Shown: one piece after another, positions 3,835 through 34,766 of the stretch
Layout of the letters: each line of letters begins with the position of its first letter
Numbering within the stretch: position 1 is the first letter of the stretch
IMG/VR virus record: IMGVR_UViG_3300008261_002322
Coordinates: 1 to 49,174 of that record
Direction: 5' to 3' (one strand)
DNA length: 49,174 bases
Source: a virus
Program-made: the position numbers and the translations under genes
The notes under the pieces: model-generated
Databases searched by the model: none
What the model was told of the DNA's origin: nothing
What the model saw: only the letters and a program-made list of their open reading frames with translations

Positions 3835-4256
3835 TGGCACTGATAGATCTAACTTACAAAGGACTTACAGGAGCATATGGCAGTATCACAGGGTTTGATG
3901 ATACTACAACCATCGACGACCTCATTACTGCTATTGCCGCTGACGAAGGATTGGATACTAACTTTTATACGATCAGCAAAATCGAAGATCCTGCAGATAC
4001 ATTAAGTATTGTATATGGAGATAGTACCAGTAGTGTAGCAAGTTTAGGAATTATCGACGGAGATACTATACTTTGTACAACCAACCAAAACGGCAGTAGA
4101 GAGTATAGACAAAAACAAAAACTAGATATTGCCGCTGTTAAACGCAGCGATACATATGACATAACACAGTTACCTACAAAGTATTCGGGTAATACATTGG
4201 TAGACAATGCTAATGTAGGTGGCTTGGTTGCTCGACGACCTTGGAACACACCCTAA
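3834..4256 (+). CDS. Hypothetical virion-associated protein
   Basis: The 140-residue product starts MALIDLTYKGLTGAYG and has alternating hydrophobic/polar strand segments, many Asp and Thr, and an aromatic tail RRPWNTP. Composition and coupling (TAATG on both sides) to the next large structural gene suggest a virion or assembly protein. No family is recognised. Confidence 0.6.
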   Translation: MALIDLTYKGLTGAYGSITGFDDTTTIDDLITAIAADEGLDTNFYTISKIEDPADTLSIVYGDSTSSVASLGIIDGDTILCTTNQNGSREYRQKQKLDIAAVKRSDTYDITQLPTKYSGNTLVDNANVGGLVARRPWNTP

Positions 4257-5575
4257 TGCCTAATTTAAATCCCAACAGCACAAACTACATTCATACATAC
4301 GAGCCAAACACCAATGACCTAACCATGAGTATGCAGTACGATGCTGAGGGTCAGCCAACACTGAGAACCATTGATAGTCAAGCAGGTTATACTAGCAAGA
4401 ACAGGTTGAAGATATCGAACTATCAAACTGACTTCTTCAACACATTCCAATACGGCAAAGAGACAGATGTCTGGGATGAATCAACAACCAACGGCGGATC
4501 TGCCACTTGGAATAGTGATACCAACTGGATTGACATGGCAGTAAACAATACACAGGGCTCTAAAGTAATTCGACAGACTCGTAATGTGATGCGATACCTT
4601 CCGGGACGCAGCTCTCAACTTACCTATGCAGTTAGATTACAAACACCAGTCGTAGGTATACGCAGACGCTTTGGTCTCTACGACGATGCCAACGGTTTTT
4701 TCTTTGAAGATGCAGGAGTCATAGGTGCGGACGGCTTACCAGAATACAACGTTGTGGTGCGCAGCAGCACATCAGGCTCGATGGTTGAGAATCGCATACC
4801 TCGCAGCCAATGGAACGGAGATCGGTTGGATGGGTTGGGCAACAGTGGTATTGTGGCTGATTCTACCAAAGCACAGATGATCACTTTTGACTATGAATGG
4901 TACGGTGCTGGACAGATCATTGTAGGTTTCGTGATCAACGGTTATACATATATCGTTCACACATTCAATCACGCTAATATCGTAACTGTGCCGTGGAGTT
5001 CCACTCCGTTCCTGCCCATTAGATTAGAGATAGAAAATCTCACAGGAGTAGCAGGCACACACTATCTATATCAAGGATCTAACAGTCTTATATCAGAAGG
5101 TGAAGCCACTAAACTGGGCATTGCAGAAAACATCACCAGCCCTATCACAGGCAGGACTATGAGTGCTGCCAACACATTCTATCCTATACTCAGCATTAGA
5201 TTAAAAAGTGCTGCACTCAAAGGCATCGTCCTGCCCACATTCTTCCAAGCAGCCACTATAGACAACACATCTGTGTTTTATAAACTGGTTCGCAATGCCA
5301 CACTAACTGGTGCTAACTTTGTGGACATGCCTGACGCCAACGCATTTACACAATATGATGTTAGTGCTACTAGTTATACCGGCGGCGTAGATATTGACAG
5401 TGGATTTGTTATTTCTGGCGGCGGCGGCACTGGGATTAGACTGGACAAAGATACCATATATCAGATTGGTCGTGGCAGTATGGGAACAGTTAGCGATACA
5501 TTGACGCTGGCCATAGCCTGTCCTAACAGCAACAAAAGTGCATTGGCTGCTATGACCTGGATTGAACAGCGTTAA
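4256..5575 (+). CDS. Virion structural (tail fibre or appendage) protein
   Basis: The 439-residue protein starts at the ATG overlapping the previous stop. It is strand-rich with few cysteines. The central part has ordered blocks: PGRSSQLTYAVRLQTPV, RRFGLYDDANGFFFED, VVVRSSTSGSMVENRIP, WNGDRLDGLGNSG and AQMITFDYEWYGAGQIIVGF. This set recurs in marine T4-like phage and prophage structural proteins of unknown exact position. The C-terminal half is repeat-poor with Gly-rich turns. A tail fibre, neck or decoration role are all possible; virion proteomics would settle it. Confidence 0.7.
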   Translation: MPNLNPNSTNYIHTYEPNTNDLTMSMQYDAEGQPTLRTIDSQAGYTSKNRLKISNYQTDFFNTFQYGKETDVWDESTTNGGSATWNSDTNWIDMAVNNTQGSKVIRQTRNVMRYLPGRSSQLTYAVRLQTPVVGIRRRFGLYDDANGFFFEDAGVIGADGLPEYNVVVRSSTSGSMVENRIPRSQWNGDRLDGLGNSGIVADSTKAQMITFDYEWYGAGQIIVGFVINGYTYIVHTFNHANIVTVPWSSTPFLPIRLEIENLTGVAGTHYLYQGSNSLISEGEATKLGIAENITSPITGRTMSAANTFYPILSIRLKSAALKGIVLPTFFQAATIDNTSVFYKLVRNATLTGANFVDMPDANAFTQYDVSATSYTGGVDIDSGFVISGGGGTGIRLDKDTIYQIGRGSMGTVSDTLTLAIACPNSNKSALAAMTWIEQR

Positions 5576-32692: not shown

Positions 32693-32854
32693 ATGGCTTT
32701 CTATGCAATGATTGGCATTGGTGTTGTTGCAGCTATCTTTGCTGCCGGCGCTACATGGATTGTACAAAGCGTCAGCTTTAAACCTATGAAAACTCCACGT
32801 GCCGACAACACTGAAACAAATCTAAAGGATGAACAAAGTGATCCAAAAGCCTGA
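32693..32854 (+). CDS. Small membrane protein, 53 residues
   Basis: MAFYAMIGIGVVAAIFAAGA forms one membrane helix, then a polar tail. AAGGAATTAAAC precedes the ATG. It overlaps the band-7 gene start by 26 bases. Confidence 0.6.
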   Translation: MAFYAMIGIGVVAAIFAAGATWIVQSVSFKPMKTPRADNTETNLKDEQSDPKA

Positions 32855-33407
32855 ACGTTACGACTATAACTCACGTGACGAATACGAAACTGCTCTTAAA
32901 CAATATCAAATCAATCTAAGGAAAATGAAAATGAATGCTATCGTTGGTGGTACTTTTGCTACTCTTATTGGTCTTACTGCTCTCACTGTTATCGGTGGAT
33001 CTTGGTATACTGTTGGCGAAGGTTACCGTGGTGTCGCTTTGCGAAACGGTGCTGTGGTCGGAACGTCTGAACCTGGTCTTGGGTTCAAGATGCCTATTAT
33101 CGACAGTGTAGTTGATATTAGCGTCCAGTCGCAAGCTCAACTGTATGAGAACATCCTTGCTTACTCGCGAGATCAACAAACTGCTGGTTTGAGCCTGTCT
33201 GTTAACTATCGCTTGCCTGCTGATCAAGTTGAGACGATCTATCGTGAATACGGTGGTGAAGCTGGTGTGATTTCTCGACTGCTTGATCGTCAAGTTCTCG
33301 AAGAAGTGAAGAACGTCTTTGGGAAGCTCGTATGCTTGCAGAAGTTGAAGTGCAGAAGGTCCGTCAGAACGCAGAACGTGAAAAGGTCACTGCCGAAATT
33401 ACTGTGA
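32829..33407 (+). pseudogene. Band-7/prohibitin-like protein, N-terminal part, broken
   Basis: The first 160 residues are a normal SPFH/prohibitin start: a membrane helix (ATLIGLTALTVIGGSWYTVG), GEGYRGVALRNGAVVG, GLGFKMPIIDSVVDISVQ and SLSVNYRLPADQVETIYREY. After VLEEVKNVFG the frame changes to a basic unrelated tail ending at 33407. The expected middle of the SPFH domain (about 50-60 residues) is missing and the downstream frame carries the rest. This indicates an internal deletion not divisible by three. An assembly error at the junction near 33320 is the alternative. Confidence 0.8.
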
Positions 33408-33634
33408 TCCAGGCGCAAGCCGAAGCTGATGCACAACTTGCTCGAGCAACTGCGGAAGCCGAAGCCACTCGTATCCGAGGCGAAGCAGAAGCAAGTGCTA
33501 TTAAAGCAAAGGCAGAAGCTCTTAAGGACAATGCGGGTCTGATTGCACTGACTCAAGCAGAAAAGTGGAATGGTGCATTGCCTACTACTATGATTCCAGA
33601 TGCTACTGTTCCGTTTATGAACATGGGTCAGTAA
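33332..33634 (+). pseudogene. Band-7/prohibitin-like protein, C-terminal part
   Basis: The frame from about 33320 reads EARMLAEVEVQKVRQNAERE and continues as an Ala/Glu-rich coiled coil (AEADAQLARATAEAEATRIR), then the usual ALKDNAGLIALTQAEKWNG and the end VPFMNMGQ. This is the normal C-terminal half of prohibitin-like proteins. It could start at ATG 33332 only by chance. Together with the upstream fragment it shows one ancestral gene. Confidence 0.8.
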
Positions 33635-33684: not shown

Positions 33685-33715
33685 TTGACTATACCGCACA
33701 TACATGTTATAAATA
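33685..33715 (+). promoter_or_regulatory. tmRNA promoter, sigma-70-like with embedded late box
   Basis: TTGACT (33685-33690), 17-base spacer, TATAAA (33708-33713). The same place reads TATAAATA (33708-33715), the exact T4 late consensus, so both early and late transcription are possible. Confidence 0.75.
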
Positions 33716-34125
33716 AGTTGTGACGTTGAAGTTCACTGAACACGGATGAGACCCGGGGGCAGCACCCGGCAGGTCCACCATAAGAAGACTGATGATGTAT
33801 GTATATTACGATGAGAGTAAAGACAGGAGCGAAGAGTTTGATTGGAAAAAGTACTGTGATGAACAGGTACCAACTGAGCAAGAACAGATCTTTTGGGGTA
33901 ATGTAAGTATTGTATTTGTTTTAGTATTAGGATTAATCGCAGTATTTTTATGATGGGCCTGACATAGGATTGATCAACGAACTAGGCAGGATGGAGTCAC
34001 CGGGATCTAAGCGCCGTTACCGCGAAGAAAATGATAACTGCAAACACAAACGCAGCGCCAGAGATGGCACTAGCAGCCTAAGAACTGCGAGGGTTGGCAA
34101 CTTACCTAGTAACAGAAAAGTTGCT
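33716..34125 (+). ncRNA. ssrA: Circularly permuted (two-piece) tmRNA
   Basis: The acceptor piece comes first and ends in CCA at 33780. Before it, CAGGTCC-A-CCA pairs with GGGCCTG at 33955-33961 to make a 7-bp acceptor stem with the G3-U70 alanine identity pair and discriminator A. CCGGG-GGCAGCA-CCCGG (33753-33769) is the T arm with a non-canonical loop. The coding piece from 33955 has GGATTGATCAACG in the D-like place and the tag frame 34040-34081, GCA to TAA, encoding ANTNAAPEMALAA. At the end, GCAACTT/AAGTTGC (34097-34103, 34118-34124) closes a hairpin whose loop CCTAGT can pair with ACTAGG at 33981-33986. Permutation is typical of alphaproteobacteria. It rescues stalled ribosomes and tags the peptides for proteolysis. 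Mature ends are estimates. Confidence 0.92.
33792..33953 (+). CDS. 53-residue membrane protein nested in the tmRNA spacer
   Basis: The frame begins ATG ATG and reads MMYVYYDESKDRSEEFDWKK, a charged soluble part, then one C-terminal membrane helix (VSIVFVLVLGLIAVFL). It stops at 33953, one base before the coding piece of the tmRNA begins. The spacer between the two tmRNA pieces is normally short and is cut away. Here it is 174 bases and is almost filled by this frame. No clear ribosome binding site is seen (GAAGACTG lies before the start), so translation is not proven. Confidence 0.55.
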   Translation: MMYVYYDESKDRSEEFDWKKYCDEQVPTEQEQIFWGNVSIVFVLVLGLIAVFL

Positions 34126-34145: not shown

Positions 34146-34766
34146 ATGATTGGATTATTACAAAACATTGATAAATCAATGTTAATTAAATTAGTATTAT
34201 TGCATGTTGCTATTATTACAGTTTCGAACGCAATTGTTAGTAGCACATTTACACTAGCAGGATTTGTTATTAGCTGGTCGGCACTCACATTCCCTCTAGT
34301 AGTTCTTGCAACAGACTTAACTGTTAGACTACTAGGAAAAGAAACAGCAAGATCAACTATTGCGTTTGCTTACCCATTTGCAATTATTGCTTCTATTGCA
34401 GTTGTGTTAGCAAGCGGTGCTCCTGAGTCTGTTGCACTAAGGATTGGCTTTGCAAGTGCTACTGCTTACGCTGTTGGTACACTACTTGATGTTTATGTAT
34501 TCCAACACATTAGAGAACGTTGGACCAATAACTGGTGGGCGGCACCTGCAATATCAACTGTAGTAGCAAATATCATTGACACATACACATTCTTCTCAGT
34601 AGCCTTCCACGGTTCCGAAGATGCGTTTATGTCACAAAACTGGATGCTGGTTGCACACTCACAAGTGGGTATTAAAATTGCAATTGGATTAATTATTTTC
34701 TTACCGTTGTATGGGGTGTTCTTAAATTACCTCAAACGCTATTTAAATGATAAGCGAACTGGATAA
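34146..34766 (+). CDS. yhhQ: Queuosine precursor transporter (YhhQ family)
   Basis: The 206-residue protein has about six membrane helices and the YhhQ/COG1738 pattern: a VSNAIVSSTFTLAGFVISWS start, LVVLATDLTVRLLGKETARS with the conserved Asp, and WAAPAISTVVANIIDTYTFF. It imports preQ0/preQ1 or queuine for tRNA or DNA modification. AAGGAAAAAA precedes the ATG at 34146. It starts 21 bases after the tmRNA, suggesting that one transcript covers both. No preQ1 riboswitch is visible just upstream. Confidence 0.9.
   Translation: MIGLLQNIDKSMLIKLVLLHVAIITVSNAIVSSTFTLAGFVISWSALTFPLVVLATDLTVRLLGKETARSTIAFAYPFAIIASIAVVLASGAPESVALRIGFASATAYAVGTLLDVYVFQHIRERWTNNWWAAPAISTVVANIIDTYTFFSVAFHGSEDAFMSQNWMLVAHSQVGIKIAIGLIIFLPLYGVFLNYLKRYLNDKRTG

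Follow-up and report, generated by a model that had tools for sequence, protein, structure and literature searches.

The window, by which we mean the whole 49,174-nucleotide stretch of DNA analysed here, is a 49-kb viral record that encodes a T4-type (gp63-type) RNA ligase/tail fibre catalyst and a class I ribonucleotide reductase. One of its virion proteins is closest (57%) to those of cyanomyoviruses, and together with the gp63-type ligase this supports the T4-like ancestry proposed in an earlier note on this DNA. On the + strand, at positions 33720-34124, lies a permuted, two-piece tmRNA gene of the alphaproteobacterial type, recognised by Rfam and by covariation. The acceptor piece (33720..33780; RF04321 and RF01849, with covariation over related phages) stands first and contains a P2 strand, the T arm (33753-33769), the 3′ strand of the acceptor stem (33770-33776), the discriminator A33777 and an encoded CCA (33778-33780). 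It is followed on the same strand by a 174-nt intervening sequence (IVS; 33781..33954), which runs from the encoded CCA to acceptor-stem G1 and should be excised when the tmRNA matures, and then by the coding, mRNA-like piece (33955..34124; Rfam, covariation). The latter comprises the acceptor 5′ strand (33955-33961), a D-like loop, a P2 strand, the tag and a 3′ hairpin, GCAACTT...AAGTTGC; its end at 34124 is an estimate from the hairpin and the alpha_tmRNA match.

The two pieces pair in an acceptor stem of 7 bp, GGGCCTG (33955-33961) with CAGGTCC (33770-33776), which includes G3-U70 and has pair probabilities of 0.99-1.0 in the predicted fold. The alpha_tmRNA alignment places the tag reading frame, ANTNAAPEMALAA and a stop codon with GCA as resume codon, at 34040..34081 (+). 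Direct reading of the sequence thus bears out the CCA end at 33780, the start of the coding piece at 33955, the seven-pair stem with G3-U70 and discriminator A, and the tag frame, all of which the earlier note had described. Two Rfam models matched the window over their full length: tmRNA_permuted with 83.0 bits (cut-off 47; E=1.6e-14) and alpha_tmRNA, which the same note had proposed as a check, with 82.6 bits (cut-off 50; E=5.7e-21). ARAGORN called no tmRNA gene on the window. The program also misses the tmRNAs of four related contigs (L021, L030, L037 and L042) and of phage Phosso, all of them Rfam-positive, and we therefore take its silence as a program limit. Surveys that rely on ARAGORN overlook such genes, which can be misread by programs that call ORFs as well as by those that call RNAs.

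A sigma-70-type promoter, TTGACT and TATAAA separated by 17 nt, can be read directly at 33685..33713 (+), with transcription expected to start at about 33720. The pattern TTGAC-N17-TATAAATA precedes the tmRNA in nearly all family members; in the window it has three matches on the + strand, one of them before the tmRNA, and none on the − strand. A generic promoter scan made no call at 33685..33713, but that scan accepts only −10 elements that end in T. The upstream TATAAATA would also fit a T4-type late promoter. With 3 copies against about 3.5 expected per strand, this motif shows no enrichment in the window, and we favour the sigma-70 reading because TTGAC is conserved at the right spacing.

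Downstream of the tmRNA is a gene for a Vut_1 family (preQ0/vitamin) transporter (34146..34766, +; Pfam PF02592, E=2.7e-24). Just 5′ of the tmRNA, an SPFH/Band 7 gene (32829-33634) appears in the window as two overlapping frames; it is intact and single-framed in the related contigs L025 and L042.

Related phage copies

Patterns built from conserved blocks gathered a family of about 30 IMG/VR contigs, which reduced to 20 distinct sequences. A looser pattern, GCAGGATGGAGTYRCC, brought in no further family members and no new match with the layout of a tmRNA. The acceptor stem occurs as 7 different sequences among the 20 relatives, all of them paired. Positions 4-7 show compensatory changes; G1-C72, G2-C71, G3-U70 and the discriminator A are invariant in 20/20. 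The P2 region and the T stem of the tRNA-like domain covary too. A particularly direct comparison is provided by L007, whose tmRNA occupies the same location, directly before the same Vut_1 transporter gene: its stem, GGGGTCG/CGACTCC, differs from the GGGCCTG/CAGGTCC of the window by three compensated pairs, and its tag is ANSNYAPMERMVA. Compensatory changes across the family argue for selection on the RNA. With pairing kept throughout and tags that are similar, the acceptor stem and tag are conserved in related phages, and Rfam and covariation together support the central proposal of the earlier note, a phage-encoded, permuted tmRNA of alphaproteobacterial type.

Tags of L007, L021, L029, L030, L042 and L055 end in MVA (as in ANSNYAPMERMVA), the usual end being LAA, and this ending may alter the degradation of tagged proteins. 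On the 111-kb contig L048/L056 the coding piece of the tmRNA is incomplete, having lost the P2 strand and the region after it; a near-identical spacer and acceptor piece are still present.

Two contigs of the family, 330 and 382 kb in length, carry 33 and 40 tRNA matches respectively, which indicates that in these jumbo-sized phages the tmRNA belongs to an extensive set of translation genes. We found no SmpB gene on 13 phage contigs, so that SmpB of the host would be needed. When genome contigs were searched for a host, the family pattern gave four matches, none with a tmRNA by ARAGORN. The earlier note had also argued for an alphaproteobacterial host or origin of the gene. A host among the alphaproteobacteria is plausible, though not proven, because phage Melnitz, which carries such a gene, infects a non-alphaproteobacterium.

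A reading frame fills the spacer

The IVS of the window is filled by an open reading frame of 53 codons, MMYVYYDESKDRSEEFDWKKYCDEQVPTEQEQIFWGNVSIVFVLVLGLIAVFL, which extends from 33792 to 33953 on the + strand and ends in TGA; the earlier note does not mention it. A single nucleotide separates the stop codon from the predicted RNase P site, where the coding piece begins. The product of this ORF, which we call type A, would have 53 residues, acidic in the N-terminal half and hydrophobic at the C-terminus (mean Kyte-Doolittle value 2.49 over 19 residues). A possible weak Shine-Dalgarno sequence, AAGAAG, is seen at 33782..33787 (+) and is predicted to be base-paired.

Type A ORFs were found at six further loci with 94-98% identity, each time inside a tmRNA spacer, and among viral contigs the ORF was seen nowhere else. 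The lengths of both the ORF and the 174-nt IVS are constant in all 5 variants. These differ by 5 substitutions in all, 2 silent and 3 conservative, too few for selection on the protein to be shown. The ORF occurs at two genomic sites: in the window and L025 it follows the SPFH gene, in L046 and L048 a molybdopterin oxidoreductase gene. The tags downstream of it differ (ANTNAAPEMALAA, ANTNAAPAMAIAA and ANENFAPSEFALAA), which indicates that spacer and tag recombine separately. Searches of Pfam and PHROGs gave no match to the ORF, and no GIY-YIG, HNH or LAGLIDADG domain was detected in it; nor was a homologue found in phage records or among phage isolates. The oxidoreductase encoded directly 5′ of the tmRNA in L046, a 68.7-kb viral contig (L046:1872-4841), is a 990-aa, formate dehydrogenase-like protein with 2Fe-2S and 4Fe-4S domains.

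In the predicted fold, a helix that prolongs the acceptor stem closes the IVS. The 5′ strand of this helix (33779..33800, +) covers the ribosome-binding region and start codons, and its 3′ strand (33932..33952, +) consists of the last codons of the ORF and the stop, so that the leader, AAGAAG and ATGATG are paired with the 3′ end of the ORF. Pair probabilities are mostly 0.78-1.0, lower at the inner end. A closing helix of 16 pairs was reached in 0/200 dinucleotide shuffles of the window IVS; for the L042 and L055 spacers the corresponding figures were 3/200 and 12/200. Family spacers longer than 60 nt are all closed in this manner, by a helix that extends the acceptor stem. In a codon-shuffle test the closing helix was not significant, which gives no sign that the codons of the ORF were chosen to form it; the test has low power, as the helix lies largely in the leader, the tail and constrained codons.

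Spacers of the 20 relatives fall into several kinds: 5 hold type A, 2 hold other ORFs, 11 are closed hairpins of 63-105 nt with no filling ORF, and 2 are only 12-13 nt long. The two other ORFs, each known from a single contig in a family whose sequences are all metagenomic, are unrelated to type A. ORF B (L042) has 64 codons, stands behind AAAGGGAATT and has no relative outside its own contig; ORF C (L055) has 25 codons, is cysteine-rich and stands behind AAAGGAGATTAAT. A spacer-filling ORF arose in 12/20000 dinucleotide shuffles for A, 32/20000 for B and 507/20000 for C.

Three of the relatives (L023, L037 and L039) share a 99-nt IVS hairpin module, CTAGGT..CAG..TTTTCCGAAA..CCTATGTTGATAGCGAC, and have different acceptor stems; an Rfam scan of the L039 copy revealed no known RNA apart from the tmRNA. 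A different arrangement is found in L043 (1235-2500) and L029 (reverse strand, 3971-5200), where a degenerate acceptor piece with its promoter is followed by a GIY-YIG/NUMOD3 homing endonuclease gene, which takes the place expected of a spacer ORF; about 1.3 kb downstream lies an intact tmRNA. A relative of this endonuclease gene flanks the tmRNA in L032.

Relation to described genes

Permuted tmRNA in a phage, the main point of the earlier note, had already been published, T4-like phages included: 53 two-piece tmRNA gene structures have been counted in phage genomes, among them one described in the T4-like phage Melnitz (PMC9004378, 2022). We found permuted tmRNAs in 8 isolates that infect alphaproteobacterial hosts (DSS3_MAL1, MD18, RcXuper, Phosso, RpAliso, DSS3P8, RcRudolph and vB_RpoS-V10). 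The window gene shares with those of Methylophilales phage Melnitz and the Roseobacter phages DSS3_MAL1, DSS3P8 and MD18 (PMC9004378) the permuted order, the G3-U70 stem, a tag of the form AN-N-AP..AA and a helix-closed IVS. It differs in its filled spacer: the IVSs of the isolates, of 30-410 nt, contain no filling ORF. In Melnitz a glutamine riboswitch lies just downstream, whereas Rfam detected none in the window. The tag is phage-encoded, as proposed, but of an ordinary alphaproteobacterial style, AN-N-AP...LAA. The closest isolate tags, those of DSS3_MAL1 and MD18, read ANTNAAPMEMAIAA and are nearly identical to that of the window.

With alphaproteobacterial ssrA (RF01849; merged RF04321; PMC11915505) the window gene has the two-piece layout in common and passes both models, but its IVS is longer and ORF-bearing. 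In the accessible part of a survey of 97,179 tmRNAs, the only unusual IVS contents described are a tRNA gene and a repetitive element, protein genes are mentioned for group I introns and not for the spacers of permuted genes, and 79 bacteriophage sequences are counted in the tmRNA database (PMC11915505). We file the window tmRNA itself as a further member of an already described phage group, and the ORF-bearing spacer as new in the open-access literature.

Two known systems resemble the ORF-bearing spacer in part. In Coxiella burnetii, the precursor of 23S rRNA likewise contains an excised spacer with an ORF (S23) in a stable RNA; there the RNA is an rRNA, excision is by RNase III, and the ORF, unrelated to ours, is probably not expressed (PMC4990558). 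T4 I-TevI and other intron-encoded or free-standing homing endonucleases (PMC2988022) are also protein genes nested in a processed RNA, and in the intron endonucleases of T4 the ribosome-binding site is sequestered by an RNA helix. For the window ORF such pairing is predicted with high probability and stands out against dinucleotide shuffles, but not in the codon-shuffle test. Unlike I-TevI, the IVS ORF has no endonuclease domain, there is no intron, and we recognised no separate late promoter inside the IVS.

Interpretation

On its sequence and covariation we regard the window tmRNA as real and functional, and we infer its processing, alanylation and SmpB/ribosome binding from known tmRNA biology. 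Host RNase P would cut at 33954/33955 and 3′ processing would trim to the CCA at 33780; the two pieces would remain paired and be charged with alanine, and the tmRNA would act in the infected cell, together with host SmpB, to rescue ribosomes and to tag stalled proteins. As for the locus as a whole, we consider it fairly probable that it is a functional phage two-piece tmRNA gene whose IVS doubles as a small protein gene.

The most serious competitor, which we think somewhat unlikely, is that this is an ordinary phage permuted tmRNA whose IVS is a structural spacer hairpin, the open frame being incidental and untranslated. Eleven related copies have a closed-hairpin IVS with no such ORF, nine isolate phages have a structured IVS of 30-410 nt with a spacer-filling ORF in 0/9, and the predicted ribosome-binding region of the window ORF is paired. 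In addition, the IVS ORF of Coxiella 23S rRNA appears to be unexpressed and the excised IVS is degraded (PMC4990558); it is mainly because that protein seems not to be made that we are cautious about translation here. However, a filling frame is improbable by chance in types A and B, all type A variants keep the exact length, and three unrelated filling ORFs occur in these spacers, two of them with Shine-Dalgarno-like leaders (AAAGGGAATT and AAAGGAGATTAAT) right after the CCA.

It is also conceivable, though quite unlikely, that selfish DNA uses the IVS as a landing site. The small ORFs would then be remnants of mobile genes such as homing endonucleases, or related to such genes, harmlessly housed in a removable spacer. 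The GIY-YIG/NUMOD3 gene right behind the dead acceptor piece in L043 and L029, upstream of an intact tmRNA, would agree with this, as would its relative beside the L032 tmRNA. But none of the three small IVS proteins (A, B and C) matches an endonuclease, type A with its 53 aa is too small to be one, and there is no known cut site. That the locus is a decayed remnant or a non-functional host-derived copy from which tmRNA is no longer made is very improbable: dead acceptor pieces do exist in the family (L043 at 1235, L029) and L048 lacks part of its coding piece, but the window keeps the 7 acceptor pairs, G3-U70, CCA, T arm, P2, resume codon, in-frame tag with its stop and 3′ hairpin, and the family-wide compensatory changes point to selection on the RNA.

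Under the reading that we prefer, a tmRNA gene with a protein-coding IVS, we infer that the ORF is translated and that its translation is coupled to tmRNA maturation. The product would be a small protein ending in a hydrophobic segment that probably lies in a membrane. As the ribosome-binding region is paired with the 3′ end of the ORF and the stop abuts the RNase P site, translation would occur mainly from the nascent or unfolded precursor, at a stage when the 3′ strand of the closing helix has yet to be made; the folded precursor would be matured into tmRNA, and a ribosome finishing the ORF would cover the RNase P site. The spacer would then act as an exchangeable cargo site. A bolder version, which we offer tentatively and think rather unlikely as it stands, is that in this phage group the spacer serves specifically as an exchangeable bay for small protein genes and that cargo translation and tmRNA maturation compete on one precursor: a ribosome on the ORF would open the closing helix and cover the RNase P site, and the supply of tmRNA would track the loading of free ribosomes.

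Spacers of phage two-piece tmRNAs have hitherto been treated as waste, and here one is predicted to be protein-coding. Exchange of the spacer among related phages has been independent of the tmRNA, and the predicted fold links a ribosome-binding site to a processing site. If the ORF is translated, a single short transcript would give rise to a small phage protein as well as a ribosome-rescue RNA and would offer a testable case of translation versus RNA maturation.

Further phage tmRNA genes

Several of the isolate genes have escaped annotation or been misannotated. Sinorhizobium phage Phosso (344-946) has an unannotated permuted tmRNA with a strongly structured IVS of 410 nt, and the tmRNAs of RcXuper, RpAliso, MD18, DSS3P8 and vB_RpoS-V10 are likewise unannotated. 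The annotation of Rhodobacter phage RcRudolph places a hypothetical protein, UUV44828.1, on top of its permuted tmRNA (833-1168). Four phages of the Roseobacter group (L059, L060, L113 and L115) have a GOLLD RNA just 5′ of the permuted tmRNA, and in two of the four this RNA contains a tRNA-Arg.
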